From Clostridia bacterium (GTDB lineage Bacteria > Bacillota > Clostridia > Saccharofermentanales > UBA5734), in contig SABL01000019.1 of NCBI GenBank assembly GCA_009928985.1, positions 1 through 33,012 on the forward strand: DNA of 33,012 bases, read 5' to 3'. This document shows positions 1,746 to 18,744 of the stretch, piece after piece (position 1 is the stretch's first letter; the number at the start of each line of letters is the position of its first letter). The position numbers and the translations under genes were made by a program. The notes beneath the pieces were generated by a model. That model saw only the letters and a program-made list of their open reading frames with translations, did not search any database and was not told the origin of the DNA.

Positions 1746-1780
1746 TTCTTTGGATGCCCCTTATTATTGGATCTGGTTGA

Positions 1781-1828
1781 AGAAAAAAGAACGGCATGTG
1801 TGCAGGCTTTTGACCCGCACACATGCCG
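1781..1828 (-). terminator. rho-independent terminator between binding protein and oxidoreductase genes
   Basis: CGGCATGTGTGC (1792-1803) pairs perfectly with GCACACATGCCG (1817-1828), a 12-bp stem with a 13-base loop. On the minus strand it is followed by a pyrimidine run containing TTCTTTTTTCT (1791 down to 1781). It lies 54 bases after the stop of the binding-protein gene, so it should end most transcripts there and let a fraction continue into the oxidoreductase gene. Confidence 0.8.
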
Positions 1829-1881
1829 ATTCCATGAGGTTTCAAGCTAGAACAGGCGATGCAACGGTCATAATGATCAAA

Positions 1882-3516: not shown

Positions 3517-3547
3517 AATTCTTCCTCCATTTTTTTATGATCTTTCA

Positions 3548-3563
3548 GGCAGCTGGTGCTGCC
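3548..3563 (-). promoter_or_regulatory. small hairpin upstream of the binding-protein gene
   Basis: GGCAGC-TGGT-GCTGCC is a 6-bp perfect stem with a 4-base loop, 31 bases before the binding-protein start and within the 80-base gap after the permease gene. There is no U-tract on the minus strand, so it is not a convincing terminator. It could protect the binding-protein mRNA after processing. A similar small hairpin precedes the binding-protein gene at 17584. Confidence 0.3.
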
Positions 3564-3596
3564 AATGATCCCCTGGGAATTAAACAGTGTGTCTTG

Positions 3597-4466
3597 TTAA
3601 CCTTTGACCGAACCAATCAAGAGACCTTTGACGAAATATTTCTGCAAGAACGGATAGACCATGATGATCGGCACCGTAGAAACCACCAGGGTGGCCATTT
3701 TCATGGTATCCGAGTTGACAAAACTGGTGACTTCCACGCCCGACGTAAACGCTGTCCCTTCCATCAGGATCATTCGGAGCACGTATTGCAGGACGAATTT
3801 TTCCTGGGTTTTCATGTAGAGCATGTTGTCAAACCAGCTGTTCCAGTGGTTGACGCCATACCAGAGTGAAATCGTCGCCAGAATGGGCAGGGAGAGCGGG
3901 ATAATGATCTTGAACAAGATGTAGATGTCGTTCGCGCCGTCAATCCGTGCGGACTCCTCGAGCGATTCGGGTATGGTCATGAAAAAATTCCTGGCGACGA
4001 TGAGGGTGAAAGCACAGATGGCGCCGGGCAGGATCAACGCCCCGAGGGTATCCCTCAGTCCCAGGTTGTTAACCAGGATGTACAAAGGTATCAGGCCGCC
4101 ACTGAAATACATGGTGAAGACGATGAGCCCCGTCCTGAGTTTCCGGTTGGGCAGGTATTTTTTTGACAAAGGGTAAGCCCCCAGGACCGTCAGTAAAACA
4201 GACAGGGAGGTTCCGGCCAGCGTCCGGATGATCGTATTCAGATAGGAATTCCAGATCAGGCCATTCTGGAAGACCCGGATGTATCCTGATAAATCGATCT
4301 TGGTCGGGAACAGTTTGAAGCCGTATTTGAGCACTTCCGAAGACGGACTGAATGATATCGTGATCACCTGGAGAAAGGGCAGCAGGGTGATCAGGGACAA
4401 TAGACCCAGCAGCAAGTAGATCAGCCCGTCGATCATGAGGTCAGTCTTTTTACGTTTTCCTACCAT
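3597..4466 (-). CDS. LplC-type carbohydrate ABC transporter permease
   Basis: A 289-residue inner-membrane permease of the binding-protein-dependent MalG/LplC group, with about six transmembrane segments. The first is LIYLLLGLLSLITLLPFL. The cytoplasmic coupling loop (EAA motif) is ESARIDGANDIYILFKIIIP, which docks on the ATPase. I chose the ATG at 4466 because AAAGGA stands 6 bases ahead of it and it begins 10 bases after the stop of the preceding permease. The frame is open upstream to 4517, but that would overlap the neighbour and adds an atypical leader. It partners with the permease at 4477-5439 and the lipoprotein at 1882-3516. Confidence 0.9.
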   Translation of the reverse strand: MVGKRKKTDLMIDGLIYLLLGLLSLITLLPFLQVITISFSPSSEVLKYGFKLFPTKIDLSGYIRVFQNGLIWNSYLNTIIRTLAGTSLSVLLTVLGAYPLSKKYLPNRKLRTGLIVFTMYFSGGLIPLYILVNNLGLRDTLGALILPGAICAFTLIVARNFFMTIPESLEESARIDGANDIYILFKIIIPLSLPILATISLWYGVNHWNSWFDNMLYMKTQEKFVLQYVLRMILMEGTAFTSGVEVTSFVNSDTMKMATLVVSTVPIIMVYPFLQKYFVKGLLIGSVKG

Positions 4467-4476
4467 GGTTTTTCCT

Positions 4477-5439
4477 TTACAGAATCGAATAATCGCTTGT
4501 TCTTTTGGCGATCGCATTCGTCAGCATGACGAGGGAAAAGGCGACGATATTTTTGAAGAGACCCACTGCGGTTGCATAGCTGTAATTCATGCGCTGCAAG
4601 CCTTCCCGGAACGTGTAGGTGGACAGCACGTCACCGACATCCATGACTTTTGAGTTCAGCAAATTGAAGGTCTGGTCAAAATCATCGTTGATGATGCTGC
4701 CGGTCGCAAAGATGAACATGATGATGATGACTGGCGCCATGCAAGGCAGGGTAATGTTGATGATCTTGCGAAACCGCCCCGCGCCATCGAGTTCCGCAAC
4801 ATCATAGAGCTCAGGATCGATGCCGGTGATCGCGGCCAGGTAAATGATGGAAGACCAGCCCAGTTCGCGCCAGATGCCAGATCCGACGACAATTTTCCGG
4901 AACCAGTCTGGCTCAGCTATGAAGAAGATGGGTTCCAGGTTCAAATTCTGCAGGACGATGTTGATTGGTCCGCGCGAGGGCGAAAAGAGCTCGATCACCA
5001 TGCCCGCCAGAACAACCCAGGAAATGAAATGGGGCAAATACGTAACCGACTGCACCAGCTTCTTGTATCTCAGGTTGCGCACCTCATTGAGCAGGATGGC
5101 CAGCAGGATGGGCGCAGGAAATCCAAAAATCAGCTTGGAGAAACTGATGATCAGGGTGTTTTTCAGGACTGCTTTGAAAAACAGGCTGTCGAATATTTCC
5201 TGGAAGTGCTCCAGGCCTGCCCAAGGAGAGCCCATAATCCCTTTCAGTGGATAGAAATCCTTGAAAGCAATGACGATGCCATACATCGGTCCATAGTGAA
5301 ACAAGCCAAAATAGGCAAAGACAGGAATCAGCATGAGAAAAAAGCTCCTGTATTTGACGTACTGGCTTAATGGCCCCTTATTCAGGCTCATTTTTGGCGC
5401 TTTGTCTGTTTTAATCACCTTGGCACTCATCGAGTTCAT
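4477..5439 (-). CDS. LplB-type carbohydrate ABC transporter permease
   Basis: A 320-residue permease with about six transmembrane helices, beginning with RSFFLMLIPVFAYFGLFHYGP after a polar leader of about 30 residues, which is typical of LplB/YtdP proteins. The conserved stretch YGPMYGIVIAFKDF and the EAA loop (LYDVAELDGAGRFRKIINIT) are present. It forms a heterodimer with the next permease. AGGAGA precedes the ATG by 7 bases, and the gene starts 12 bases after the stop of the kinase gene, so the two are co-transcribed and probably translationally linked. Confidence 0.92.
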   Translation of the reverse strand: MNSMSAKVIKTDKAPKMSLNKGPLSQYVKYRSFFLMLIPVFAYFGLFHYGPMYGIVIAFKDFYPLKGIMGSPWAGLEHFQEIFDSLFFKAVLKNTLIISFSKLIFGFPAPILLAILLNEVRNLRYKKLVQSVTYLPHFISWVVLAGMVIELFSPSRGPINIVLQNLNLEPIFFIAEPDWFRKIVVGSGIWRELGWSSIIYLAAITGIDPELYDVAELDGAGRFRKIINITLPCMAPVIIIMFIFATGSIINDDFDQTFNLLNSKVMDVGDVLSTYTFREGLQRMNYSYATAVGLFKNIVAFSLVMLTNAIAKRTSDYSIL

Positions 5440-5451
5440 TCAACGTCTCCT

Positions 5452-6564
5452 TCAGCAGCGCAGCATCTGACACCGCTGTGCGTACTGGTTCCATTTGCAT
5501 TCCATGTCAGCGACTAATTTGAACTGAGTCCGGGCCCGGACCAGGTTGTGATCTGGATACTGGATTTTAAAGTACTGGTCCTGATTCAGATAATCGGTCA
5601 AAAACCGCATGCCACATTCCAGAGTCATGATTTTAGCACCCCAAGGCGCCAATTCAATCTCCCTTGGGGTCAGGATGGTTCCAGCTTTTTCAAAAAATCC
5701 CCTGGTAAAAGCTTCGGCCTTGTCGAGATCAAACCAGACCTTTTCCATGTCGCTTTCATCTTCTGCCGCGGTTGATGCTCCATAGCGGATCGCATCGCCA
5801 TAATCGTACAATGCCAGGCCGGGCATCACGGTATCCAGATCAATGACACAGATACCTTCGCCCGTTTCACTGTCCAGCATCACATTGTTGAGCTTCGTGT
5901 CGTTATGCGTCACACGAAGCGGTAAATCACCGTTCTTCCAGGCCTCAACCAGCAAGGACAGTTCAGATTCGTGTGCTTTGACAAATGCCAGTTCACTTTG
6001 GACTTGACTGGCCCTCCCAGCCCGGTCCTGCCTGGCAGCTGTCAGCAGATCCTGGAACCTTTTCGGTGTGTTATGGAAATCCGCAATTGTTTCATGCAGG
6101 ACCTCTGCCGGAAAACCCTGCAGCAATTGGTGGAAGCGGCCAAAAGCCAGAGCAGCCTGGAAAAACTGGTCATTATTATCTGCCTGTTCCAGACTGACTG
6201 CACCTTCAATAAACAGGTAGGCGCGCCAGAATCCCCCATCCTCTGCCAAATACCAGGCTTTATCCTCCCGGGTCCGGATCAGCGTCAGAGTCTCCCTGTC
6301 AGCGTCACCACCAGCCGCATCAATGGCGCGCCGCAAGTGGCTGGTGACTTGCTCGATATTTTCCATCAGGGCGACTGGGTCGCGAAACACGCGGGTATTG
6401 ATGCTTTGCAGGATATACCGTTTGATCTGGCCTCCGGGCAACAGGAAACGAGCTTCGTAGGTGTCATTGATGTGCCCGTGACCGTAGGGGAGGGCTGACA
6501 GGAACTGCCCTGCGAAGTTGAATTGCATGACCACATGCAACAGGGCGGAATCACTCAAGCCCAT
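5452..6564 (-). CDS. nahK: N-acetylhexosamine 1-kinase (NahK-like, APH fold)
   Basis: A 370-residue kinase of the aminoglycoside phosphotransferase fold that closely resembles Bifidobacterium NahK, which phosphorylates GlcNAc or GalNAc at C1 with ATP. Visible landmarks are the glycine-rich strand PYGHGHINDTY (26-36), RYILQSINTRVF, the catalytic loop VTHNDTKLNN (218-227, Asp222), the metal-binding IDLDTVMPG (241-249), and near the end TLECGMRFLTDYL and YPDHNLVRARTQ. All are nearly word-for-word in NahK as I remember it. Length matches (about 360). The start at 6564 makes TGATATG with the stop of the upstream gene; an earlier in-frame ATG at 6588 would overlap that gene. The pathway role is phosphorylation of imported N-acetylhexosamine, feeding the nucleotidyltransferase encoded just upstream. 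Specificity for GlcNAc versus GalNAc cannot be told from sequence. Confidence 0.85.
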   Translation of the reverse strand: MGLSDSALLHVVMQFNFAGQFLSALPYGHGHINDTYEARFLLPGGQIKRYILQSINTRVFRDPVALMENIEQVTSHLRRAIDAAGGDADRETLTLIRTREDKAWYLAEDGGFWRAYLFIEGAVSLEQADNNDQFFQAALAFGRFHQLLQGFPAEVLHETIADFHNTPKRFQDLLTAARQDRAGRASQVQSELAFVKAHESELSLLVEAWKNGDLPLRVTHNDTKLNNVMLDSETGEGICVIDLDTVMPGLALYDYGDAIRYGASTAAEDESDMEKVWFDLDKAEAFTRGFFEKAGTILTPREIELAPWGAKIMTLECGMRFLTDYLNQDQYFKIQYPDHNLVRARTQFKLVADMECKWNQYAQRCQMLRC

Positions 6565-6565
6565 A

Positions 6566-7516
6566 TCAGGAAACCTCTTCCTGGGCACACGCCGGCCACA
6601 ATTTTTCAGGGTAGAGTCCCTTGTCCTTCATTGCCTGCATGGCTTCTGCTATCAGAGCCTTATCTTCAGGGTAGGTCATGCCATGCCACAGATCGGGGGT
6701 CGACAGGACCTTGACACGGCTGCTGCCGGATTGGATGCCCTGGTTGACAACAGCATTGAGGAAAAATTCAGCCTTCAGGGGATCTGCTTTCATCTGCCCT
6801 TCCCAAAAGGCCGCAAATTCAGCTGCCAGAACCTTAAGGAACTCAGGTGCGAAGCCCCAGGCGTTCATCGATACCTTCGTGTCGGCTGCTATTTTTTCCC
6901 AGGTCTGCGCCTTATCGTCAAAATAGGCCAGATCGGCCCCTTGCCGGGCGATTTTGCTTCTTTCGACCACACTGGCCAGATGGCCGTTCTTATCGATCTG
7001 GCACACACCCCTGGAAACAGAACCATGCTCGGAAACAGTATTGCCGAGCAAATAGGATACCATGACATCGTCCGTGGTTTCGCCACGGCCCAATGCACTC
7101 AAATGCGTGTAGATGAACACAAACGCCTGCGGTCCGTAGTAATCGTCAGCATTGATCACCGCAAAAGGTTCATGGATCAAATGGCGGGCCGCCAGGATTG
7201 CATGTCCGGTGCCGTAAGGTTTGCTGCGGTCCTGGGGAACCACACAGCCAGCCGGTACATCATCCAGGCGCTGGTGTGCATATTCGACTTCGATAGACTT
7301 GGCCAGACAGTCACCGATTACCTGCCGGAAAGCTGGTTCCATGTCTGGTGAAATAATGAATATGACACGCTTGAATCCGGCCCGGATCGCATCGTAGATG
7401 GAAAAATCAATGATCCTCTCGTGCTGCAAGGTGACGGACTCGATCTGCTTCAAGCTACCAAAACGGCTGCCGAGTCCGGCAGCCATGACAACAAGGGCAG
7501 GTGTTTTAGTTTCCAT
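6566..7516 (-). CDS. sugar-1-phosphate nucleotidyltransferase
   Basis: A 316-residue nucleotidyltransferase with the GT-A like fold. Signature elements are VVMAAGLGSRFGSLKQ (9-24; the G-x-G-x-R loop and Lys that bind the nucleotide), KPYGTGHAIL (99-108), and INADDYYG (121-128), whose acidic residues bind metal. Such enzymes couple sugar 1-phosphates to UTP or dTTP. It is the first gene of the operon, starting 41 bases downstream of a TATAAT box, and its stop nearly touches the kinase start. The pairing with a NahK-type 1-kinase suggests the product is a UDP-N-acetylhexosamine, but the true sugar and nucleotide are inferred. Confidence 0.85.
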   Translation of the reverse strand: METKTPALVVMAAGLGSRFGSLKQIESVTLQHERIIDFSIYDAIRAGFKRVIFIISPDMEPAFRQVIGDCLAKSIEVEYAHQRLDDVPAGCVVPQDRSKPYGTGHAILAARHLIHEPFAVINADDYYGPQAFVFIYTHLSALGRGETTDDVMVSYLLGNTVSEHGSVSRGVCQIDKNGHLASVVERSKIARQGADLAYFDDKAQTWEKIAADTKVSMNAWGFAPEFLKVLAAEFAAFWEGQMKADPLKAEFFLNAVVNQGIQSGSSRVKVLSTPDLWHGMTYPEDKALIAEAMQAMKDKGLYPEKLWPACAQEEVS

Positions 7517-7533
7517 GTATAAAACCCCTCGGT

Positions 7534-7559
7534 AATTTAAACAATCATTTGTTCAAATT
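7534..7559. promoter_or_regulatory. near-palindrome across the transcription start region
   Basis: AATTTAAACAA-TCAT-TTGTTCAAATT has 10 of 11 paired positions around a 4-base centre. On the minus strand it begins inside the -10 box and extends through the expected start of transcription, a usual place for a repressor operator. It is separate from the direct repeats farther upstream. Confidence 0.45.
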
Positions 7560-7585
7560 ATACGGACGGGGCTTCAGGGTGTATT
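7557..7585 (-). promoter_or_regulatory. minus-strand promoter of the nucleotidyltransferase-kinase-ABC operon
   Basis: A perfect TATAAT on the minus strand (7562 to 7557) has a 17-base spacer, but the expected -35 position (7585 to 7580) has no good match to TTGACA. A strong -10 with a poor -35 is typical of promoters that need an activator; the proximal direct repeat overlaps the -35 position. Confidence 0.6.
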
Positions 7586-7614
7586 TGCAGAATTAACAAT
7601 AATGTTTGCAGAAT
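7584..7614 (-). promoter_or_regulatory. AraC-type operator: two direct repeats 21 bp apart
   Basis: On the minus strand ATTCTGCAAA occurs twice in direct orientation (7593-7584 and 7614-7605), with exactly 21 bases between repeat starts, i.e. two turns of the helix. The proximal copy overlaps the -35 position. AraC-family activators bind such repeats, and a gene for one lies immediately upstream (7683-8879). The response regulator at 8893-10446 has the same type of DNA-binding domain and is an alternative binder. Confidence 0.65.
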
Positions 7615-7682
7615 CCTATTGGATTTGACGGGCTGCCTGAATTTGGCGGACGATGCTCCAGTTGGTCCTGTTGGCTGGATCT

Positions 7683-8879
7683 TCAGCGAATGGCTCGCGA
7701 ATATTCCGATGGAGAGATCGAATACTTGGTTTTAAATAATCTGGAATAGTAGTGGACGGAATTGAAGCCGAGTGCTTTGGCTATTTCGGTCAAGTTCAGA
7801 TTCCCCTCGCGAATCATGTCCTTGCTTTTTTCCAGCTTGACATGGGTGATGTATTCGACCAGCGTCATGCCTTGCCGCCTTTTAAACACGGCTGACACAT
7901 ACGATGGACTGACATGAACTTCCGCAGCAATCTCGGCAATGGAGATTTTATTGTTCAGATTCAAATGAATGTAGGACATGGCTCGGCTAATCATGTCCTT
8001 TTCGACATTGATTCTCAGATGATTCTCCAAGGTCTGGACAGGACTAACCTGGAGGTTGGACCGGACCAGGGTGATCACCAGTTCTTTCAGGTAGCACAAA
8101 ATCAAATCATCCGTGAAATAAGATGGATTGTCTTTCTCACGGAGGATGCGGTTGAGGATGTCGACTTGTTCGCGCTTCAGGTGGAAAACCTGATTGGTGA
8201 TCAAGGATTCGTCTTGCATCGCCATGCCAAACGTGACAGTGATAAAATTGGCCGCAACCTCTGCGTCCGAATACTGGCAATGAAATTGGCCCGGACTATA
8301 GAAGATCGCGTCACCTTGCTGCAATTTAAACCGTTTTCCATCCACTTCAGTGACGAGAGAGGCTTTGTCGACATACGTCAACTCCCAGAACGGGTGACGT
8401 TCCCCATTGAAACGAAACCCCCGGTCCTTTTCCTGGTAGAACAACGTATAGATGCACAGAATGTTGAAGCGTGGCAATACTTGCAGAGGCTTGTGCAGCA
8501 GTTCGCTGTCCAGGTCTTCGGCGATCAGCCGGGAACAGTGGCTCTCCCCTGGTTTGACCCACAGCATCACATGGCACCGGTCATTGAGAGCCTGGATGCA
8601 AAAGTTGAGCGGATGGTTCAGAACGACTTTCTTGTCGAGCAGAAACGTCTTCAAATCCGTCAAATCAGACTGAAAAGAGACACTAAGCAAGGCGACCCCG
8701 TCTCTCAACTCAATCAGGAGCTCGCCCGAGGTTAAACGGTATAGATGGGATAGATCTTCGCCAACTTCCAGATCTTCCAGCAATTGCCAGGCGGAATCCG
8801 GTTGCACAGAGCGTTCTGGGTTCTCGTGCAAAACGACCCCGTAAGCAGAAAAATTCTGGACGTTCAGATGGTTGATCAT
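7683..8879 (-). CDS. AraC-family transcriptional regulator with cupin-like sensor region
   Basis: A 398-residue cytoplasmic regulator. The C-terminal 100 residues hold two helix-turn-helix units: ISIAEIAAEVHVSPSYVSAV, then the second, with LTEIAKALGFNSVHYYSRLF and the closing SPSEYSR. The middle region (about 165-260) carries a cupin-like AraC_binding pattern (HPFWELTYVD, GDAIFYSPGQFHCQY), which binds small molecules such as sugars. The N-terminal 150 residues are not recognised. GGAG precedes the ATG by about 7 bases and the start lies 13 bases after the response-regulator gene, so all three regulatory genes form one transcript. It probably activates the operon that begins at 7516 through the repeats at 7584-7614. 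Confidence 0.9.
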   Translation of the reverse strand: MINHLNVQNFSAYGVVLHENPERSVQPDSAWQLLEDLEVGEDLSHLYRLTSGELLIELRDGVALLSVSFQSDLTDLKTFLLDKKVVLNHPLNFCIQALNDRCHVMLWVKPGESHCSRLIAEDLDSELLHKPLQVLPRFNILCIYTLFYQEKDRGFRFNGERHPFWELTYVDKASLVTEVDGKRFKLQQGDAIFYSPGQFHCQYSDAEVAANFITVTFGMAMQDESLITNQVFHLKREQVDILNRILREKDNPSYFTDDLILCYLKELVITLVRSNLQVSPVQTLENHLRINVEKDMISRAMSYIHLNLNNKISIAEIAAEVHVSPSYVSAVFKRRQGMTLVEYITHVKLEKSKDMIREGNLNLTEIAKALGFNSVHYYSRLFKTKYSISPSEYSRAIR

Positions 8880-8892
8880 GAAATGACTCCGT

Positions 8893-10446
8893 TCATTTCA
8901 GCAACATCTCCCGGTAATCGCGTGGTGTCATGTCCATATATTTTTTAAAAGTCATCGTAAAATATTGTGGCTCATTGTAACCCACGGCATAGGCGATTTC
9001 CGTTATCTTCTTCTTAGAGTCCGAAAGCAGTTCAGTCGCTTTCTGGATCCGGACTTCATTGAGCAGATCGGAAAACCCTTTGCCAGTTTCATTTGAGATG
9101 ATCGAGCTCAGGTAGGTGGGTGACAAATATACTTGCTTGGCTATGTCATTGAGTGTGATTCCGTTGTGGTAGTTGCTTTGGATGTAACTCAAAATCCGGT
9201 TCATCAAGGTTTGTCGGCTCAACGATTTGATGGAACGGTAATCAGCGAGGTCCATGATCAGGCCATTGAAAACGTCATTCAGTTCACCCATGGATTCACA
9301 GCTGACAATTTTCCGGAAGCTGGCATACTTGTCAAACAAGAGGCTGATCTGTCGCATGTCATCTTTGAGAACGCGTTTGATGATGAGAATGATCGACGTG
9401 ATGGTTACACTTTTGATCAGGTCGATCTCATCCCCCAGTTTTTCTATGGTCTCATTGAACAACTGGTTGCAGTCCCTGCTCAACGTACTATTGTCAGGCC
9501 TGTCCAACCATTCTACAACCTGATCGCAGATATGATTGATGGTCTTGTAATCTTGATGGCTCTTTTCGTGGCTGTCGGTTGCATCCGAAATGAAGAAATT
9601 GATGCTGCCATTACCGGAAAAGAATTTGCGGCCAAGCGCCCGCAGGCTTTCGATGTAAGCTTCGTGGAGCTGGTCGAGACGGTCATGAACGAGGCTGACC
9701 CCCAGGGAAAGGGTTGCCCGGAAAGTGTCTGTGACCCGGACCAGGATCTGATTGAGGAACTGGCGCAATGAGTCACTGTCCGCGTGTTGGGTATCACTTT
9801 TCACGACCATGGCCAGGTTCTGGTCATCGACCCGTGTCAGGGTGACCGCTTGACCCGTAATCAACGTTTCAAGATAGGTCTGCAAGTTTTGCTGCCGGAC
9901 CAGGTCACCCATTTCGTAGTCAAAGCGAAAGACAACGACCTGGAACCGATGGAGACTGTCAAGGAAATTCTTGACCTCTGGCACAATCTCCGAGGATTTG
10001 TAGATCTTGCCAGTCAGTAGATAGCGCAAAACTTGCTCACGCTGGTTGAGGATGCGCTTGTTTTCCTGCTGGCTATAGATTTTATCAATCAGCTTGTTGA
10101 TCGCATCCAATAATTCCGAATAGACAACCGGTTTGGTCAGAAAACAGGACGCACCCAGATTGATTGCGTCTCTGGCGTAATCGAAATTGCGATGTCCAGT
10201 CAAAATGATGAACTGGGTTTCCGGGTATTGTTCGCGCACATAGCGGAGAAAAGTCAAACCATCTACGCCAGGCATGACGATATCCGATATGATGATGTCC
10301 GGCTGGTTTTTCATGCACATGGCCAGGGCACTGATGCCTGAATCAGCTACATCGATCAATTCGCAGCCCATCTCATGCCACGGGAAAGCTTTGGCCAGGC
10401 TATTTCGGATACCAGCCTCGTCTTCAACGATGAGTATCTTGATCAT
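8893..10446 (-). CDS. YesN-type response regulator (receiver + AraC DNA-binding domain)
   Basis: A 517-residue response regulator. The receiver domain (1-120) has Glu8/Asp9, the phosphoacceptor Asp55 in IIISDIVMPG, Thr83 and Lys105 in LTKP. A long linker of about 270 residues follows, as in YesN proteins. The C-terminus is an AraC helix-turn-helix pair (ITLNDIAKQVYLSPTYLSSI and KKITEIAYAVGYNEPQYFTM, then TPRDYREMLLK). The gene overlaps the 3' end of the sensor kinase gene by 23 bases, so they are translated together as a cognate pair. Targets probably include a sugar transport operon next door. Confidence 0.95.
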   Translation of the reverse strand: MIKILIVEDEAGIRNSLAKAFPWHEMGCELIDVADSGISALAMCMKNQPDIIISDIVMPGVDGLTFLRYVREQYPETQFIILTGHRNFDYARDAINLGASCFLTKPVVYSELLDAINKLIDKIYSQQENKRILNQREQVLRYLLTGKIYKSSEIVPEVKNFLDSLHRFQVVVFRFDYEMGDLVRQQNLQTYLETLITGQAVTLTRVDDQNLAMVVKSDTQHADSDSLRQFLNQILVRVTDTFRATLSLGVSLVHDRLDQLHEAYIESLRALGRKFFSGNGSINFFISDATDSHEKSHQDYKTINHICDQVVEWLDRPDNSTLSRDCNQLFNETIEKLGDEIDLIKSVTITSIILIIKRVLKDDMRQISLLFDKYASFRKIVSCESMGELNDVFNGLIMDLADYRSIKSLSRQTLMNRILSYIQSNYHNGITLNDIAKQVYLSPTYLSSIISNETGKGFSDLLNEVRIQKATELLSDSKKKITEIAYAVGYNEPQYFTMTFKKYMDMTPRDYREMLLK

Positions 10447-12220
10447 GGTTGTCCTTTCCCTCAGTTTTCAGCAAGGGGATGCGTAGCGTGACGCAGGTCC
10501 CCCTGGTTAGATTGCTTGCGATCGTCAAACCATACCCATCCCCATACAGCAAGTGGATGCGCTGCTGAATGTTCGCCAATGCGATACCATGCCGTCCCGT
10601 GGATTCCGTTTCATTGTCCACAGCATCCAGATTCAATGCTTCTTTCAGCACATTGCTGCGCATGCCAACCCCGTCATCCACGACTTGGATGACCATGTCT
10701 TCATTGTCCCGGAACACTTCAAGGGAGACTTGGCCAGACGAAGTCTTAGGTGCCAGACCATGTGTGATGGCATTTTCCAGGATAGGCTGGATGACGAGCT
10801 TGGGAATCTGATAGCTGAAAAGCTCCCCTGGAACATGGATCTGAACCGCGATCTTGTCGACGTATTTTGAACGAATGATTTTGACATAGTGTTCAATATA
10901 CTGTAGTTCCTCAGCCAATGTAAACGTCTGGTCGCCATCGGCATAAAGTTCTGTCTCGAGCATGTAACTCAGACTATGGATCATGTCACAGACCTGGTCT
11001 GCTTCATATTCGTGGGCTTTCCAGCTGATCATCTGAAGGGTGTTGAATAAAAAATGCGGGTTAATCTTGGCCAGGAGATTGCGCAGCTGGGCCTCCTTTT
11101 CAGCGAGGCGAATTCTATAGACAGTGTTGATCAGATTGTTCAGCTTTGCCGTCATCTCGTTGAATCCGTGATTGAACAGACTGACCTCCCGGATCGATGA
11201 GTGTGTTTCGAGGCTCGTCGACAGATGGCCTTGCTGCGCCTGGTTCATGGCCCTGACCAGACTGCCGATCGGTCTGCTGACCCGCTGCGCGATCATGACC
11301 GCAAGAATGATTCCCATGGCCGCGATCACGACAGCAAAGGCATAGAGAAAGCCGGCCAGTTGGTTCAGGTTGGCAAACAGGATGTCCTTGTCTATCAGGA
11401 CAATGGTGGTCCATTTCTCATAAGGGAAAGAAGCTGCAACATCTTCCAGGCGGCTGAATATGATCAGCTGGCTGGAGTTGCTGATGGTACCGGACTGCTT
11501 GTTTTTGATCAGGTCAGCATACTCTGCTGTCGTCCCGAGGGCTCTTTTATCGTTGGCACCCATTACCCGTGCCTGATCATCGGCAATGAACATTTTGTCG
11601 ATGCTGATGGTATTGAATGCATTGAACTTGTCGAGCAGGAAATCAACAGACATGCGGATGACAAGCAGGGCTTCTGTTTCGTAGGTTGCAGGATTATAAA
11701 TCAGGCGGGAAATATCAATACTGTCCACTGTCGAATTGTAGCCGATCCAATTCAGCTCCATGGGATAGACCAACGCTTGCTTCATGTAATCACTCTGGAA
11801 AGGCTGGCTCAGACGAGTCGGCTTGCTGCCATAGGAGTAGACTGCACCAGATGATTTGACATAGAGGTCGATGTTCTGGACATAATACTGGTCCAGTGAG
11901 CGGGGAGACAAGTAGTCAGACATCAATTGACTGAAGCCAAAATTCAAGACTGAATCAGGCGCATCAGATTCGACAAGCAGCTGAAAAGCAGGTTCTTCAA
12001 TCAGCTGGTCAATTTTGGCATCAAAATCGCGCAAGGCATAGGCAATTCCCGTGCTGGTCTGCACGGCAATATCCTGTGAATAATTCTCTGCCTGGTCGGC
12101 GTAGATGGATTCATAGAGATTTTTCGGAACGACCAGCAAAGCCAGTGTCATCAAAACAACAACACTGGAGATGAACAGAACCATGTAGTTTTTCAAGCTT
12201 AGCGTCAGTTTCAATTTCAA
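10424..12220 (-). CDS. YesM-type sensor histidine kinase
   Basis: A 598-residue membrane kinase. Transmembrane helix 1 is near residues 12-32. An extracellular sensor region of about 250 residues follows, then helix 2 (LAGFLYAFAVVIAAMGIILA), a HAMP linker starting at RVSRPIGSLVRAM, the His_kinase domain with the phosphorylated histidine in INPHFLFNTLQMISW, and an ATPase domain with N-box PILENAITHG and G-box VVDDGVGM. This is the LytS/YesM architecture used for sensing extracellular sugars or cell-wall compounds. The longest frame starts with TTG at 12220 (GGGA 8 bases ahead), giving a basic leader before helix 1; the first ATG is at 12184. It is divergently transcribed from an orphan binding-protein gene, which might supply its ligand signal. 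Confidence 0.93.
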   Translation of the reverse strand: MKLKLTLSLKNYMVLFISSVVVLMTLALLVVPKNLYESIYADQAENYSQDIAVQTSTGIAYALRDFDAKIDQLIEEPAFQLLVESDAPDSVLNFGFSQLMSDYLSPRSLDQYYVQNIDLYVKSSGAVYSYGSKPTRLSQPFQSDYMKQALVYPMELNWIGYNSTVDSIDISRLIYNPATYETEALLVIRMSVDFLLDKFNAFNTISIDKMFIADDQARVMGANDKRALGTTAEYADLIKNKQSGTISNSSQLIIFSRLEDVAASFPYEKWTTIVLIDKDILFANLNQLAGFLYAFAVVIAAMGIILAVMIAQRVSRPIGSLVRAMNQAQQGHLSTSLETHSSIREVSLFNHGFNEMTAKLNNLINTVYRIRLAEKEAQLRNLLAKINPHFLFNTLQMISWKAHEYEADQVCDMIHSLSYMLETELYADGDQTFTLAEELQYIEHYVKIIRSKYVDKIAVQIHVPGELFSYQIPKLVIQPILENAITHGLAPKTSSGQVSLEVFRDNEDMVIQVVDDGVGMRSNVLKEALNLDAVDNETESTGRHGIALANIQQRIHLLYGDGYGLTIASNLTRGTCVTLRIPLLKTEGKDNHDQDTHR

Positions 12221-12319
12221 TTAAAATCCCGTTATACGCTTCTTCATCCACTTACCTTTGCATGAATTGGCAAGCACTTTCCTTATAACACGGCTGACAC
12301 TCACTGTCCAGAATGAATA

Positions 12320-12343
12320 GAACAGGCGTAAAACCGCCTGTTC
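12320..12343. promoter_or_regulatory. perfect inverted repeat just upstream of a plus-strand promoter
   Basis: GAACAGGCG-TAAAAC-CGCCTGTTC is a 9-bp perfect inverted repeat. It ends three bases before the -35 hexamer of the plus-strand promoter in the kinase/binding-protein divergent gap. It may be an operator. A terminator role is less likely because it lies at the head of divergent genes and is followed only by ATTTTGG. Confidence 0.45.
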
Positions 12344-12346
12344 ATT

Positions 12347-12375
12347 TTGGATAGTATGCCTATATTTTATATAAT
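12347..12375 (+). promoter_or_regulatory. sigma-A type promoter for the CUT2 sugar operon
   Basis: TTGGAT (12347-12352), a 17-base spacer and a perfect TATAAT (12370-12375). The surrounding 60 bases are markedly A/T-rich. It would give a leader of about 110 bases before the ATG at 12494. Confidence 0.65.
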
Positions 12376-12493
12376 TTTATCATTCTCCTGTGATCGTAAT
12401 AAATTATAAGTGAAAAACCTGATGATAATTGATTTACTTAAGGTTCATAAAATCTTAACATCTATCTGTCACAAGGTTGAAATTGGAGTGTAC

Positions 12494-13861
12494 ATGACCA
12501 AAAAGGGTTGTAAGCTAGTCAGGTCGATCATCGTCTTATGGATGACTGGTGTCTTGCTGGCAGGTTGCCAGTCCAGTCAGGTCGCTCCTTCCGATTCCAG
12601 CATAACACCTGCGAGTGGGATAAGTCAGGCATCTGAAAAGCCAGTCGAGATCAATGTCGCCTGGCAGTATATCAAGGATAGCCAGCAGCAGGTTTGGTTC
12701 AAATACATTTTTGAACCATTTACCACCAAACACCCTGAAGTGAAGGTCAACTTCCGGACCTACCCAGACTGGCAGACATCGGTCCGAATCCAGATCGAAG
12801 CTGGTGCGGGGCCAGACATGTTCTACATGGACAGTTTTGATGTGCCATACTACGCGACCCGCAATCAGATCTTGAACCTTGAAAACTATCGCAAACAGTA
12901 TAACCTGGACCAGGTCATGTATGACTGGGCCATCCGGGCGACTCTGTTCAACGGACAAATGTATGCATTGCCTCAATCCGTGGAAGCAACGGCCCTTACT
13001 TATAACAAAACCTTGCTCAATCGACTGGGACACGATGTGCCCAGGACACGTGAAGAATATGTCGCCCTGTGTGAGTCGGCCCTGGATGCCAACCTGATAC
13101 CGGTTGCTTTTGGCTACAAAGGAGTCAACATCCTGTTGAACTGGTATGTCGAGCACTATTTGACGACCTATTGTGGAGCTGATGTCATCCGTGAAATGCT
13201 GCAGGGAACTCGCCCGTTCAACGATCCTGTCATCAGTGACGCGTTCAAATTGATGAAAGCCGACTGGGATGCAGGATACATTGGTGGGCGGCGCAGCGCT
13301 GCAACTCCACTCAATGAAGCCCGGGAGCAATTCACCAACCAGCAGGCTGTGATGAATTTCGAAGGAGCTTGGCTGACCTTGGTTGATACAGCACCTGGCA
13401 CGTGGAAATTCGAATGGGGACAGACCATCTGGCCCTCCATGCGCGACGGGGTCCCACCTGCTTCAGCCATTTCCCTGGGCGAAGCCATTGGCATCTCCTC
13501 CGCCTCGAGACATGCTGACCTCTGCGTCGAGATGATGATGGACTACTACCTGGACGAGAAAGTAGCCGCCCAAGTGGTCGCCTCCGGCTTTTCCACACCA
13601 GCCCGGCCAATCGACCCCTCCCTCTACCCTGCAGACATGTCAGTTGACATCAAAAAGGCCCTCGACGCCCAGGTTTACAACATGAACCAGCCAGGAACAG
13701 GCTATGCGCCCTGGGGATTTTTCCCGACCAGGCTGAATGAATACATTTTGAACAACTTCGAAAAGCTGCTCTACAACCAGATGAGCCTTGACAGCTTTAT
13801 GGCTGGTGGCCAGCCCATACTCGAACAGGATTTTGCAGAAGGTTTTGTCTTCGCCGGTTAA
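12494..13861 (+). CDS. orphan family-1 (CUT1-type) sugar-binding lipoprotein
   Basis: A 455-residue secreted lipoprotein: basic start MTKKGCK, hydrophobic core, and lipobox LLAGC. The mature protein is a family 1 solute-binding protein, with INVAWQYI, the FEPFTTKHPEVKVNF strand-helix and the ligand-pocket region AGAGPDMFYMDSFDVPYY. The ATG at 12494 is chosen because GGAG lies 6 bases upstream and the signal peptide begins there; the frame is open further upstream without a signal. Family 1 proteins normally serve two MalF/MalG-like permeases, but here the next genes encode a ribose-type (CUT2) importer that has its own binding protein. It is therefore either a second specificity factor or, being divergent from the sensor kinase, an extracellular sensor component. 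Confidence 0.85.
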   Translation: MTKKGCKLVRSIIVLWMTGVLLAGCQSSQVAPSDSSITPASGISQASEKPVEINVAWQYIKDSQQQVWFKYIFEPFTTKHPEVKVNFRTYPDWQTSVRIQIEAGAGPDMFYMDSFDVPYYATRNQILNLENYRKQYNLDQVMYDWAIRATLFNGQMYALPQSVEATALTYNKTLLNRLGHDVPRTREEYVALCESALDANLIPVAFGYKGVNILLNWYVEHYLTTYCGADVIREMLQGTRPFNDPVISDAFKLMKADWDAGYIGGRRSAATPLNEAREQFTNQQAVMNFEGAWLTLVDTAPGTWKFEWGQTIWPSMRDGVPPASAISLGEAIGISSASRHADLCVEMMMDYYLDEKVAAQVVASGFSTPARPIDPSLYPADMSVDIKKALDAQVYNMNQPGTGYAPWGFFPTRLNEYILNNFEKLLYNQMSLDSFMAGGQPILEQDFAEGFVFAG

Positions 13862-13902: not shown

Positions 13903-15411
13903 ATGGAAAGTGAATATTTTCTCCGTGTCAGGAATGTCAGCAAGACATTCCCCAGTGTTAAAGCACTCGATAACGTCTCCTTCAGTGTCAAAAAAGGGGA
14001 AGTCCATGCTTTGATTGGTGAAAATGGCGCTGGCAAATCTACCTTGATCAAGGTTCTGGCGGGCGTTTATGAGCCTGATCCTGGTGCTCACATCGAAATC
14101 GAAGGCGAGGTCATCGGCAAGCTGAATCCGATCACCTCTGTCCGCCATGGCATTTCAATCATCTTCCAGGATTTCTCACTGTTCGCCAATTTGACAGTGG
14201 CCGAAAACATTGCGATCAGCAGCTCCCTGCAGCAGGGAAGCACCCTGGTTGACTGGAAAAACATGCGGCAAGTCGCTCGCAAAGCCATCGAATACCTCGG
14301 TGTGGATATCCCACTGGACAGCCGGCTGGGCAATCTGTCAATCGCCAGGCAACAACTGGTCGCGATCGCCCGTTCGCTGGCCAGCAACGCCAAAATGATC
14401 ATCATGGACGAACCGACATCAGCCCTCTCCAAAGGCGAGGTCGACTTACTTTTCAAAATCATCCGGAATTTGCAGGCCGATGGTATTTCCGTTGTTTTTG
14501 TCAGCCATAAGCTGGAAGAACTTTTTGAAGTCTGCGAAACCTTCACGATCCTCCGCGATGGCAAATACATAGGCGAATACCCGGCCAGGGAAATGGACAA
14601 CAACAAACTGATCGCCCTGATGGTCGGGCGATCGGTATCTTATGACCGCCTGGCTGCCAAGGAAATCGGCGAGACGGTTCTGGAGGTCCAGAACCTGACC
14701 AAAGCTGGCAATTTCAAGGACATCTCCTTCCAGCTCCACAAAGGGGAGATCCTGGGAATTACTGGACTGGTGGGATCCGGGCGAACCGAGATGGCCCATG
14801 CTTTATTCGGTTTGAACAAACCAGACAGCGGCAGGATCCTGCTCAACGGCAGCCAGGTTGAATTTTCAACCCCCACGGCTGCCGTGGCAGCCGGAATCGC
14901 ATTTGTGCCAGAAAACCGTGCACTCGAAGGCCTGGTCCTACGCCAGAACATGCGTGACAACATCACGTTGGCGGTGCTCAACCAGTTAACGAACTCGCTC
15001 AAATTGATCGACAAGAAACGCCTGACTGACGAAGCAGATCAATGGATCAAGGAGATCAATGTCCGTCCAGCAGTCCCGGACATGCTGGCAGGCCAGTTCT
15101 CTGGCGGCAACGCGCAGCGGATTGTCATCGGCAAATGGTTGGCTACTCACCCGAAAATCCTGATCATCGACGAGCCAACCAACGGCATCGATGTCGGAGC
15201 CAAGGCAGAAATCCATCGCCTCATGCGTCAATTGGCTGATGCTGGCATGGCTGTGATCATGATTTCATCCGAGCTGCCCGAAGTGCTCGCGATCAGCGAC
15301 CGGGTCCTGGTCATGCGCCGCGGCCGGATCAATGGCGAATTCACAGGCAGCCAGATCAATTCTGAAGCCATCATGAACAAGGCCTTCCTTGCTGACAACA
15401 AGGTTGGTTAA
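13903..15411 (+). CDS. CUT2 sugar ABC transporter ATP-binding protein (RbsA/MglA type)
   Basis: A 502-residue cytoplasmic ATPase with two fused nucleotide-binding domains. Domain 1 has Walker A GENGAGKST (39-47), Q-loop Gln88, signature LSIARQQ (144-150) and Walker B MIIMDEPTS (164-172). Domain 2 has the degenerate Walker A GLVGSGRTE, signature FSGGNAQ and Walker B ILIIDEPTNGIDVGAK. The degenerate second P-loop and LSI-type first signature are normal for this family, in which one site hydrolyses ATP. It powers the two permeases encoded just downstream. Length agrees with RbsA/XylG/MglA (about 500). The start has AGGAA 6 bases upstream. Confidence 0.95.
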   Translation: MESEYFLRVRNVSKTFPSVKALDNVSFSVKKGEVHALIGENGAGKSTLIKVLAGVYEPDPGAHIEIEGEVIGKLNPITSVRHGISIIFQDFSLFANLTVAENIAISSSLQQGSTLVDWKNMRQVARKAIEYLGVDIPLDSRLGNLSIARQQLVAIARSLASNAKMIIMDEPTSALSKGEVDLLFKIIRNLQADGISVVFVSHKLEELFEVCETFTILRDGKYIGEYPAREMDNNKLIALMVGRSVSYDRLAAKEIGETVLEVQNLTKAGNFKDISFQLHKGEILGITGLVGSGRTEMAHALFGLNKPDSGRILLNGSQVEFSTPTAAVAAGIAFVPENRALEGLVLRQNMRDNITLAVLNQLTNSLKLIDKKRLTDEADQWIKEINVRPAVPDMLAGQFSGGNAQRIVIGKWLATHPKILIIDEPTNGIDVGAKAEIHRLMRQLADAGMAVIMISSELPEVLAISDRVLVMRRGRINGEFTGSQINSEAIMNKAFLADNKVG

Positions 15412-15438: not shown

Positions 15439-16410
15439 ATGAAAGAATGGATGAAAACAAAGGAGTTCATGATCCTGACGATCGTGACGACTGTTTTCCT
15501 GATCATTTCAATCGGGAACCCCACCGCATTCCTGACCACCGGCAATCTATTCGACATCGTCAAATCCAACCTGGTCCTGGCCATTGCAGCCATGGGCATG
15601 TTGCCAATCATTCTGACGGGCGGTATCGATGTCTCTGTCGGTGCCTTGATGGGTGTCGCTTCCGTCATGTCAGCCTATTTCATGATCAATGTGTCTGACA
15701 ACATTGCCCTGGGCTTCCTGGCAGGCGCCCTGACAGGCATCTTGCTGGGCGCAGTCAATGGTGCTTTTATCGCTTTCATGAAAATGCCGCCGATCGTCGC
15801 GACACTGGGTACTTTGTCCATTTACCAGGGCTTGATGAACTTTATCACCAACGGCAACTGGATCACCAATATTCCTGCTGGTTTCGTCGAATTCGGTAAA
15901 AAATACCTGTTCGACCTGATCCCTGTCCAGTTCATCTTCCTGGTCGCCATGGTTGTGCTCACCTGGTGGCTCCTGAAATACACCTATTGGGGCCGCGGTG
16001 TCTTTGCCATCGGCGGCAACATCATCTCAGCTGAACGAATTGGCTTTAATGTCAAGCGCCTCCAATTCATGCTCTATATGTTCATCGGATTTGCCAGTGG
16101 CATTGCAGGGGTTGTTCGGACCAGCATTTTCGGTCAAGTTGATCCAAAAGTCTTCACGGGATTCGAACTTAAAGTCATTGGAGCAGTAGTTGTTGGCGGT
16201 GCCAGCACCTCTGGTGGATATGGCAGTGTCTTGGGAACCTTGCTGGGTGTTGTCCTGATGGGGCTACTCGAAAACGGCATGATTCTGCTCAAGATTCCTA
16301 CGTTCTGGCAGAAGATCTTTATCGGCACAGTCATCCTGTTCGCCGTCACAGCGGACATCCTCCGCGCTAAAAGAGCCGAAGCAAAACGCATCAAAGTTGA
16401 TGTGGCCTAA
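15439..16410 (+). CDS. CUT2 sugar ABC transporter permease (RbsC type), first copy
   Basis: A 323-residue permease with 8-10 hydrophobic segments. The family hallmark GGIDVSVGALMGVASVMSAY is near residue 55, and the C-terminal glycine-rich loop (AVVVGGASTSGGYGSVLGTL) is near 255. A GAGGAGA ribosome binding site precedes the ATG. It probably pairs as a heterodimer with the following permease; many CUT2 systems use two different permeases. Substrates of the family are monosaccharides such as ribose, xylose, rhamnose, allose, or autoinducer-2. Confidence 0.93.
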   Translation: MKEWMKTKEFMILTIVTTVFLIISIGNPTAFLTTGNLFDIVKSNLVLAIAAMGMLPIILTGGIDVSVGALMGVASVMSAYFMINVSDNIALGFLAGALTGILLGAVNGAFIAFMKMPPIVATLGTLSIYQGLMNFITNGNWITNIPAGFVEFGKKYLFDLIPVQFIFLVAMVVLTWWLLKYTYWGRGVFAIGGNIISAERIGFNVKRLQFMLYMFIGFASGIAGVVRTSIFGQVDPKVFTGFELKVIGAVVVGGASTSGGYGSVLGTLLGVVLMGLLENGMILLKIPTFWQKIFIGTVILFAVTADILRAKRAEAKRIKVDVA

Positions 16411-16425
16411 GAGGAGGTGCCCAAG

Positions 16426-17496
16426 ATGGTTAAGACTAAGAAAAATCCAGCTGCCGTTGTCAAGGTAGTCTCGCCCTTGCAACATCCCCTGTTTAAGTCC
16501 ATTCGAGGTAATTCCAAAGAATTTACCCTGATCATCGTTCTGGTCGTCATCACCTTGCTGCTGACCATCCTGACCAAAGGAAAATTCCTAAGCTCAGCCA
16601 ACCTCGTTTCCATGGCTTTCCAACTGCCGGAGTTCGGTTTCATCGCACTCGGCATGATGGTCGTCGTTCTGACAGGCGGCATCAACCTTTCGGTTGTCAA
16701 TACGGCTGCCATGTCATCCATTTTTGGTGCCTTGACCATTTCCAAAATCTTTAACCAAGGGGAAGGCAATGCCACCTTGGCTCTGGTCGCAGGTCTGGCT
16801 GCCATCGCAGTCGTCGCTTTGCTGGGTGGGACACTGAACGGTCTGGCTGTTGCCCAGTTTGGCGTCGCCCCGATGCTGGTCACGATCTCGACCATGATGA
16901 TTTTTGAAGGAGTCGGTTTGCTGTTTACCAAAGGTGGCGCAATATCTGGATTCCCATCCAATTACATGTGGATCGGAGCCGGGAAAATCTTTGGCGTTCC
17001 CTTTCCCATGGTTCTCTTCATGCTCGCAGTCATTGTCTATGTGATCTTGCTCGAACATACAGTCTGGGGCAGACATGTCTATATGGTTGGCTGCAATCCC
17101 ACAGCGACCTACTTCTCAGGGGTCAACAACCGCTCGGTCCTGATGCGTGTCTACCTGTTATCAGCCGCCTGTGGCATCTTTGCCGCACTTCTGATTTCCT
17201 CACGATACAATTCAGCCAAAGTCGATTACGGTTCGTCCTACCTGATGAAATCGATCGTAGCCACCGTCCTCGGTGGGACAGATATCAACGGCGGTTACGG
17301 AAAAGTCATTGGCACGGTCACAGCCGTACTGATTATCCAGGCCATTTCTTCAGGTCTGAACTTGCTCAATGTCAATCGTTTCCTGACCGACGTCATCATG
17401 GGCGGCCTGCTGCTGGTTGTCCTGGCGATCAACTTCGCCAGCATGGTCCTTTCTGCCCGGCGCAGCAAACAGCAGGCTGCAGCCAAAGCGGCTTGA
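16426..17496 (+). CDS. CUT2 sugar ABC transporter permease (RbsC type), second copy
   Basis: A 356-residue permease homologous to the preceding one: LTGGINLSVVNTAAMSSIFG corresponds to the GGIDVSVG region, and the loop VLGGTDINGGYGKVIGTV matches near the C-terminus. GAGGAGG at 16411-16417 lies 8 bases before the ATG at 16426, so that start is preferred over an in-frame GTG at 16417 inside the binding site. It lies 15 bases after the first permease. The helix with ASMVLSARRSKQ ends in a basic cytoplasmic tail. Confidence 0.93.
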   Translation: MVKTKKNPAAVVKVVSPLQHPLFKSIRGNSKEFTLIIVLVVITLLLTILTKGKFLSSANLVSMAFQLPEFGFIALGMMVVVLTGGINLSVVNTAAMSSIFGALTISKIFNQGEGNATLALVAGLAAIAVVALLGGTLNGLAVAQFGVAPMLVTISTMMIFEGVGLLFTKGGAISGFPSNYMWIGAGKIFGVPFPMVLFMLAVIVYVILLEHTVWGRHVYMVGCNPTATYFSGVNNRSVLMRVYLLSAACGIFAALLISSRYNSAKVDYGSSYLMKSIVATVLGGTDINGGYGKVIGTVTAVLIIQAISSGLNLLNVNRFLTDVIMGGLLLVVLAINFASMVLSARRSKQQAAAKAA

Positions 17497-17542: not shown

Positions 17543-17558
17543 GCATGCACCAGCATGC
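17543..17558 (+). promoter_or_regulatory. small hairpin upstream of the CUT2 binding-protein gene
   Basis: GCATGC-ACCA-GCATGC, with flanking ATCA/TGAT able to extend the stem past one bulged T. It lies in the 87-base gap between permease and binding-protein genes, 25 bases before the start. There is no T-tract after it, so it more likely acts on mRNA stability or processing than on termination. Confidence 0.35.
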
Positions 17559-17583
17559 TGATAAAATAAAAGGAGGAAGACCC

Positions 17584-18642
17584 ATGTTCAAAAAAGCAAT
17601 CTCAGTCATGCTCGTCCTCGTGATGGTCACCCTGGTTGGCTGCTCAGCGGCTACCACCACAGCCACCACAGCGGCTCCTGCGGCTACCACAGCTGCAGCT
17701 GCCGAAACCACCGCAGCCCCGGCTGGCGGCAGCGAACCCTACACCATCGTCGTCATGCCCAAGCTCATCGGTATCCCCTACTTCAACCGTTCCCAGACCG
17801 GTGCAGAACAGGCTGGCAAAGATCTTGGTGTCAACGTCATCTACAACGGTCCTTCCGTTGGTGACGCAGCCCAGCAAGTCCAGATGATCGAAGACTACAT
17901 CACCCAGGGTGTTGACGCCATCTGCGTAGCCCCGAATGATGCTGCTGCCCTGACCCCTGTCCTGCAGAAGGCCAAAGACGCCGGCATCAAAGTCCTCGAC
18001 TGGGATACGCCTGCTGAAAAATCCGTTGTCGAACTGTCTGTCCACCAGATTGACGACAAGGAACTCGCCCAGGTCTATTATGACCAGCTCGTCGAGATCG
18101 CCGGCACAGATTCCGGAAACTATGCCATCATCACCGGCGGCCTGTCTGCTGCCAACCTCAACACCTGGATCGATCTCGGTGCTGAGTACGCCAAGACCAA
18201 ATACCCGAACCTCAAGCTGGCCACCGAAAAAATCGGTTCCGACGAATCTGCCGACATCGCCTACCAGAAGGCCCTCGACCTGATCAAGACCTATCCGGAC
18301 CTGATCGGTATCCTCGGCTATTCCACCCCGGCCCCGCTCGGCATTGCCAAGGCTGTCCAGGAAAAAGGTCTGCAGGACAAGATCGCTGTCCTCGGCACCG
18401 CTATGCCGACTGACTCCAAGCCCTACCTGCAAGACGGCTCCCTTGATGCCTCCCTGCTCTGGGATCCGGCTACCCTCGGCTACCTGACTGTTTACCTGGC
18501 CAAGGCTGTCCTCGATGGCACCCCTGTCACCGATGGCATGGATGTTCCGAATGTTGGCAAAATCGTTGTCAGCGGCAAAGACGTTGTCATGGGTCCTCCG
18601 GCCGTCTTCACCAAGGAAAATGTTGACAACTATCCTTTCTAA
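17584..18642 (+). CDS. CUT2 sugar-binding lipoprotein (periplasmic binding protein type 1, RbsB-like)
   Basis: A 352-residue lipoprotein. The signal peptide ends in lipobox LVGC, followed by a long Ala/Thr linker of about 35 residues, then a Peripla_BP_4 fold (YTIVVMPKLIGIPYFNR, GVDAICVAPNDAAAL, KVLDWDTPAEK). This is the ligand-capturing subunit for the importer encoded at 13903-17496. GGAGG stands 7 bases before the ATG. Codons here are unusually rich in C-ending forms, consistent with high expression. The AI-2/rhamnose/simple-sugar binding subfamilies look alike, so the ligand is inferred from the ketose enzymes downstream. Confidence 0.93.
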   Translation: MFKKAISVMLVLVMVTLVGCSAATTTATTAAPAATTAAAAETTAAPAGGSEPYTIVVMPKLIGIPYFNRSQTGAEQAGKDLGVNVIYNGPSVGDAAQQVQMIEDYITQGVDAICVAPNDAAALTPVLQKAKDAGIKVLDWDTPAEKSVVELSVHQIDDKELAQVYYDQLVEIAGTDSGNYAIITGGLSAANLNTWIDLGAEYAKTKYPNLKLATEKIGSDESADIAYQKALDLIKTYPDLIGILGYSTPAPLGIAKAVQEKGLQDKIAVLGTAMPTDSKPYLQDGSLDASLLWDPATLGYLTVYLAKAVLDGTPVTDGMDVPNVGKIVVSGKDVVMGPPAVFTKENVDNYPF

Positions 18643-18686: not shown

Positions 18687-18724
18687 GGCTCCCACTAAAC
18701 ATCACACTTTAGTGGGAGCCTTTT
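18687..18724 (+). terminator. rho-independent terminator between binding protein and kinase genes
   Basis: GGCTCCCACTAAA (18687-18699) and TTTAGTGGGAGCC (18708-18720) make a perfect 13-bp stem with an 8-base loop, followed by TTTT. It ends 20 bases before the kinase start. It should stop most transcripts after the transporter genes and leave the two enzymes at lower level. Confidence 0.85.
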
Positions 18725-18744
18725 CAAAACGGGAGGCAATGCTG

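Follow-up and report, generated by a model that had tools for sequence, protein, structure and literature searches.

The genes at one divergent locus of a clostridial genome point to a likely three-component sensor of the CuaDSR type, made up of an orphan family-1 (CUT1-type) solute-binding lipoprotein (SBP1), a YesM-type sensor kinase and a YesN-type response regulator, and placed before a CUT2 operon of the allulose type. We favor this reading because the lipoprotein and the importer differ in class, no CUT1 permease is encoded in the operon, the lipoprotein/kinase pair is conserved, and relatives of the importer occur without SBP1 or the kinase. It is strengthened by purifying selection, the conserved block at 12393-12465, the relatives of the kinase that lie beside extra PF01547-like proteins, the fold match to NagS and the precedent of CuaD.

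Gene content of the divergent locus

The window, i.e. the whole stretch of 33,012 nucleotides that was analysed, is contig C422 of a 3.0-Mb genome in 433 contigs (completeness about 97%, estimated contamination 7.7%) from a little-studied lineage within the Clostridia. The features considered are the following:

8893 to 10446, minus strand: YesN-type response regulator (PF00072, PF17853, PF12833), with a 23-bp overlap with the kinase frame
10424 to 12220, minus strand: YesM-type sensor kinase (PF06580 His_kinase, HAMP, HATPase_c), with a predicted extracytoplasmic double-Cache-like domain at about residues 30-285
12393 to 12465, plus strand: near-invariant non-coding block 5' of SBP1, candidate operator/promoter
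12494 to 13861, plus strand: SBP1, family-1 (CUT1-type) solute-binding lipoprotein, proposed co-sensor (PF01547, lipobox LLAGC)
13903 to 15411, plus strand: ATPase of the CUT2 importer with two ABC domains (PF00005, two stretches)
15439 to 16410, plus strand: CUT2 permease 1 (PF02653, 128.7 bits)
16417 to 17496, plus strand: CUT2 permease 2 (PF02653, 99 bits)
17545 to 18642, plus strand: SBP4, CUT2-type binding lipoprotein of the importer itself (PF13407, 208.6 bits)
18712 to 20247, plus strand: FGGY sugar kinase (PF00370, PF02782)
20276 to 21142, plus strand: D-psicose 3-epimerase (NF051856, 469.8 bits versus a cut-off of 300)

The first-pass annotation had described a family-1 lipoprotein heading the operon of a CUT2 importer that already has its own binding protein, and the Pfam assignments agree with this description. 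SBP1 matches PF01547 with 80.4 bits (cut-off 26) in the open reading frame 12410-13861 on the plus strand, and downstream of it, on the same strand and with short gaps between the genes, lie the double-domain ATPase, the two PF02653 permeases and the PF13407 binding protein of a CUT2 importer. According to Pfam, no CUT1 (BPD_transp_1) permease is present in the SBP1 operon, which contains only PF02653 permeases, and the sister species have the same genes. The lipoprotein had also been described as divergent from a YesM-type kinase with a large extracytoplasmic domain, and this holds as well: the genes lie on opposite strands, the Pfam domains are those of such a kinase, and hydrophobic stretches around residues 5-36 and 280-316 enclose about 250 extracytoplasmic residues. 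The start of SBP1 had to be revised, since 12393-12465 behaves as non-coding regulatory DNA and GTG 12410 is thus probably too early; ATG 12494, which has a GGAG Shine-Dalgarno motif and is conserved across the four species, appears to be the more likely start.

Regarding the substrate, the AP_endonuc_2 enzyme of the operon is a D-psicose 3-epimerase by a score above the cut-off curated by NCBI. The nearest NCBIfam models are RhaS and LsrB for SBP4 and XylB for the FGGY kinase, all with scores under cut-off. Several psicose-epimerase loci elsewhere in the class also carry CUT2 genes; in one of them, L094, YesM/YesN genes are transcribed away from the importer. The genome of the window also encodes, at L018:6216-10104 (G000:C268), a second FGGY kinase closely paralogous to that of the operon (554 bits) and facing away from a CUT1 importer; the end of this contig matches C115 (L103), and both contigs probably join.

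Conservation of the block and of the intergenic region

The regulator, the kinase, the divergent SBP1, the CUT2 genes, the FGGY kinase and the epimerase are found in the same order in three other species, within the reach of their contigs. Protein identity across the block is about 87-99% relative to these species and dN/dS is about 0.01-0.20 across all genes; the block is therefore not a chance association. Strong purifying selection is observed in the four species both for SBP1 (dN/dS 0.05-0.13), where signs of decay are absent, and for the sensor domain of the kinase (0.05-0.10). The conservation of the divergent lipoprotein/kinase pair, which the first proposal had named as a check, thus extends to four species, all of one genus.

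Of five genomes of the genus that were searched, four have SBP1, which was not found elsewhere among 23 genomes of the family; the N-terminal half of the kinase is distributed in the same way across these genomes, save for distant matches at 22-27% identity. A search of 391 genomes from the class gave no SBP1 (E<=1e-25) and no kinase sensor (E<=1e-12) outside the genus, and when 84,980 genomes were scanned with a pattern, a method that reaches close relatives only, the genus alone was returned. The closest importers outside the family (L124-L126, with SBP4 54-62% identical) show an unchanged gene order for the ATPase, the permeases and SBP4, and neither SBP1 nor YesM/YesN genes were found in their neighbourhoods. 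Within the family, one genome (G008) encodes an SBP4 that is 78% identical, and the searches of it, in which the contig concerned is short, gave neither SBP1 nor the sensor. Since neither was found with these relatives of the importer, the kinase and SBP1 seem, by sequence comparison, to be gained and lost as a pair, independently of the importer. This co-occurrence is suggestive and not statistical, because the joint gain is probably one event, the four species being members of a single genus.

Between the divergent genes, only 3 of the 73 columns of 12393-12465 are variable in the four species, versus 27 of 92 and 9 of 28 in the flanks, and this block is likely to be a control region. No repeats that could serve as regulator sites were found within it beyond those given by shuffles, and no RNA element was returned by the Rfam search. 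A perfect 9-bp inverted repeat at 12320-12343 (GAACAGGCG/CGCCTGTTC), terminator-like and also located between the divergent genes, was rejected as a candidate, being imperfect in the sister species.

Sensor domain, described co-sensors and related neighbourhoods

The AlphaFold2 model of kinase residues 30-300, built on 30 sequences (pLDDT 82.8, pTM 0.76), predicts a double-Cache-like sensor domain. Its top fold match is the sensor of the histidine kinase NagS (8w7p; Foldseek E 1e-11; Z 18.7, rmsd 2.9, 228 residues), tied with the next matches, which are chemoreceptor and cyclase domains (Z 18.2-18.0); the profile made from the 30 sensor sequences also recovers NagS (E 2.6e-13). We take NagS to come from Paenibacillus sp. 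FPU-7, the same strain as the orphan binding protein NagB1 considered below. The kinase alone has no match to dCache_1 (PF02743), and 24 of the 30 aligned sensor sequences do match it. In the regulator, a receiver (PF00072, residues 4-117) and an AraC-type HTH (HTH_18, residues 435-513) are separated by a long region with a GGDEF-like middle domain. For SBP1, the nearest solved structures are AbnE, NagB2 and XBP1, which are oligosaccharide-binding proteins, mostly from importers; its AlphaFold2 model, built on four near-identical sequences, reached a pLDDT of 38 and was left out of the analysis. The tree computed for 37 binding proteins leaves SBP1 unplaced, its long branch lying outside the common co-sensor clade, and this counts, as far as such a tree can tell, against the sensor reading.

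In Ruminiclostridium cellulolyticum, CuaD is a family-1 lipoprotein with a 20 nM affinity for cellobiose (PMC10384115, PMC5663094), and in two-hybrid assays it binds the sensor domain of CuaS, whereas CuaA, which belongs to the importer, does not (PMC10384115). CuaD improves growth and sensitivity, and CuaSR without CuaD still responds (PMC10384115, PMC5663094). The window resembles the CuaD-CuaS-CuaR system in having a family-1 lipoprotein, here without permeases of its own class, beside a YesM kinase and a regulator with an AraC-type HTH, together with an importer served by a separate binding protein, here SBP4. It differs from it in two respects: (i) both binding proteins of the Cua system are of family 1, so that co-sensor and importer match, whereas the importer here is CUT2; and (ii) cuaD is co-transcribed with cuaSR, whereas SBP1 is divergent from the kinase and lies inside the transport operon.

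The kinase could also sense its ligand directly through the double-Cache-like domain, with SBP1 co-induced for some other job, such as scavenging, or left over from a CUT1 importer since lost. In favor of this, the predicted fold resembles ligand-binding chemoreceptor domains and most of the aligned sensors match dCache_1. Two further points weigh against the sensor reading: sensors of the double-Cache kind are able to bind ligand without a partner, and CuaSR responded in the absence of CuaD (PMC10384115). Direct sensing sits poorly with the strong purifying selection on SBP1, with its position adjoining the kinase in all four species and with the distribution that the two share, and we regard it as rather unlikely.

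Among other described co-sensors, XylFII is of the PF13407 type, matching its CUT2 importer, whereas the co-sensor proposed in the window is SBP1, for which Pfam gives PF01547 only. As outlined in the published accounts of the XylFII-LytS-YesN system of Clostridium beijerinckii (PMC10384115, PMC13068155), this system is like the window in having separate binding proteins for sensing and transport, and a kinase and regulator that control the importer. AraPST with AraEGH of Geobacillus stearothermophilus, cited in PMC5663094 and with its genes araPST and araEGH named in PMC4194401, is likewise a three-component sensor tied to a CUT2 monosaccharide importer, and PMC10384115 summarizes both C. beijerinckii and G. 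stearothermophilus as cases in which two binding proteins share sensing and uptake. The Parageobacillus protein AOT13_11420, annotated PF13407 (PMC13068155), is likely the equivalent of AraP; by this likely equivalence the sensor and importer classes match in AraPST, whereas those of the window differ. In Paenibacillus sp. FPU-7, the orphan NagB1 is found beside two-component genes and its twin NagB2 beside permeases (PMC8233162). NagB1 is thus, like SBP1, an orphan family-1 protein adjoining kinase and regulator genes, but NagB1 is closely homologous to its transport twin and of one class with it, whereas SBP1 and SBP4 differ in class. What is new in the window is this mismatch between the classes of co-sensor and importer, the described cases that we checked being all class-matched.

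Gene neighbourhoods were inspected for 20 of the nearest kinases found in the class, which are 23-34% identical. In nine of them (L196-L203, L212) the kinase comes after a PF01547-like protein and before a regulator, save in L197, which has no clear regulator match; an LplB-LplC importer lies alongside, mostly with its own LplA-like binding protein. Pfam confirmed PF01547 in two of the nine kinase-preceding proteins (L198 and L203). A PF01547-like protein is divergent from the kinase in L213, and at L221, the locus of an SBP1 relative, a second PF01547 protein, a kinase and a regulator come after an importer. The tree of binding proteins points to several separate origins for the proteins that occupy the co-sensor position, some of which (L213, L221) are sisters of the transport protein at their own locus.

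The mixed arrangement of classes had been called unusual at first pass; it is indeed uncommon in the sample examined, and it is not confined to the window. At L208:6985-18463 (genome G103, another family of the class), the row reads PF01547 protein, YesM, YesN, CUT2 ATPase, permease, PF13407 protein, dehydrogenase and FGGY kinase, which by its gene content is an independent case of the class mismatch. Like the window, L208 associates a PF01547 protein and YesM/YesN with a CUT2 importer; unlike the window, all its genes are on one strand, no psicose epimerase was seen in it and its proteins are distantly related, the binding protein falling on a far branch relative to SBP1 in the tree. In the genus of the window, a second CUT2 operon (L144:14160-17914 in G020, L150:2408-5955 in G017) starts with a PF13407 protein that is apparently anchored in the membrane; divergent from it lies a regulator of 765 residues with an AraC HTH and a weak dCache match. 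It is a class-matched parallel, with sensor and regulator in one protein.

Possible transport roles of SBP1 and the proposed mechanism

Another possibility, which we consider improbable, is that SBP1 is an ordinary transport binding protein feeding CUT1 permeases encoded elsewhere. PF01547 is a transport family, the nearest structures are those of mostly importer-derived proteins, and the genome has several CUT1 systems, with nine PF01547 proteins and 37 BPD_transp_1 matches. Matching permeases co-regulated elsewhere would have counted against the first proposal, and no free CUT1 permease pair was found in the contigs inspected of this incomplete assembly: each of the CUT1-like pairs (C268 continuing on C115, C399, C335, C166, C133 and the LplBC pair of the window) has its own binding protein nearby. 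In addition, SBP1 is tied to the CUT2 operon and to the kinase in four species. On one of these contigs (L021:8559-10049, G000:C166), a second PF01547 protein lies near the CUT1 importer without permeases of its own and is possibly an accessory binding protein.

Downstream of the regulator, window positions 435-8879 encode an AraC protein, a nucleotidyltransferase, an APH-type kinase, LplB, LplC, an SBP-like lipoprotein for which Pfam returned nothing and a Gfo/Idh/MocA oxidoreductase, a set that resembles a sugar-1-phosphate salvage cluster. The kinase and regulator might mainly control this cluster, from AraC to the LplB-LplC-LplA-like genes, with SBP1 sensing its sugar. The AraC gene begins 13 bp past the stop codon of the regulator, so that co-transcription is possible, and the order SBP-kinase-regulator-LplBC is common in Clostridia. 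However, the genes after the regulator differ in two sister species, with a convergent ATPase-like gene in L016 and another two-component pair in L014, whereas the CUT2 operon is constant. The LplABC-like cluster, which the sister species do not keep, was rejected as the real target of the regulator, and we give this explanation very little credence. That SBP1 is a second receptor docking on the CUT2 permeases and widening the range of the importer, as its adjacent position in the same operon would allow, is hardly credible, given that homologous importers exist without SBP1 and that PF01547 proteins pair with BPD_transp_1 permeases, a family distinct from BPD_transp_2.

The three-component sensor, in which the first-pass annotation had the lipoprotein presenting its sugar to the kinase, is retained as the probable reading: the conserved pair, the operon devoid of a CUT1 permease, the importer relatives lacking the pair and the CuaDSR precedent are all in agreement with it. 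The support for the first proposal is partial, as the pair is conserved in one genus only, so that the co-occurrence may reflect a single event, and as the double-Cache-like domain could sense by itself. In such a sensor, SBP1, lipid-anchored at the outer face of the membrane, would capture the sugar and, either loaded or sugar-free, would contact the extracytoplasmic double-Cache-like domain of the kinase, which would phosphorylate the YesN-type regulator. The phosphorylated regulator would bind near 12393-12465 and turn on the operon, leading to more SBP1 and to the production of the CUT2 importer with SBP4, the FGGY kinase and the epimerase. With SBP4 serving uptake, SBP1 would be a signal receptor and not a transport subunit. 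We infer the SBP1-kinase contact, the phosphorelay and the target promoter, as well as the ligand of SBP1, which would be a ketose, for example D-psicose, or else a related monosaccharide or oligosaccharide. We also put forward, tentatively, that SBP1 as co-sensor detects an oligosaccharide, polyol or glycoside of the environment and switches on the uptake of an accompanying monosaccharide, e.g. D-psicose.

If this holds true, the signal would be decoupled from the transported substrate, and either class of binding protein would be an interchangeable input for YesM-type kinases. For a rare-sugar operon of the allulose type, the locus offers a candidate regulator; it also yields a simple genomic rule for recognizing co-sensors, namely a binding protein that adjoins a YesM-type kinase and lacks permeases of its own class. 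More generally, the locus suggests that a three-component sensor can take its binding protein from a class other than that of the importer under its control, and that the sugar sensed and the sugar imported can differ.
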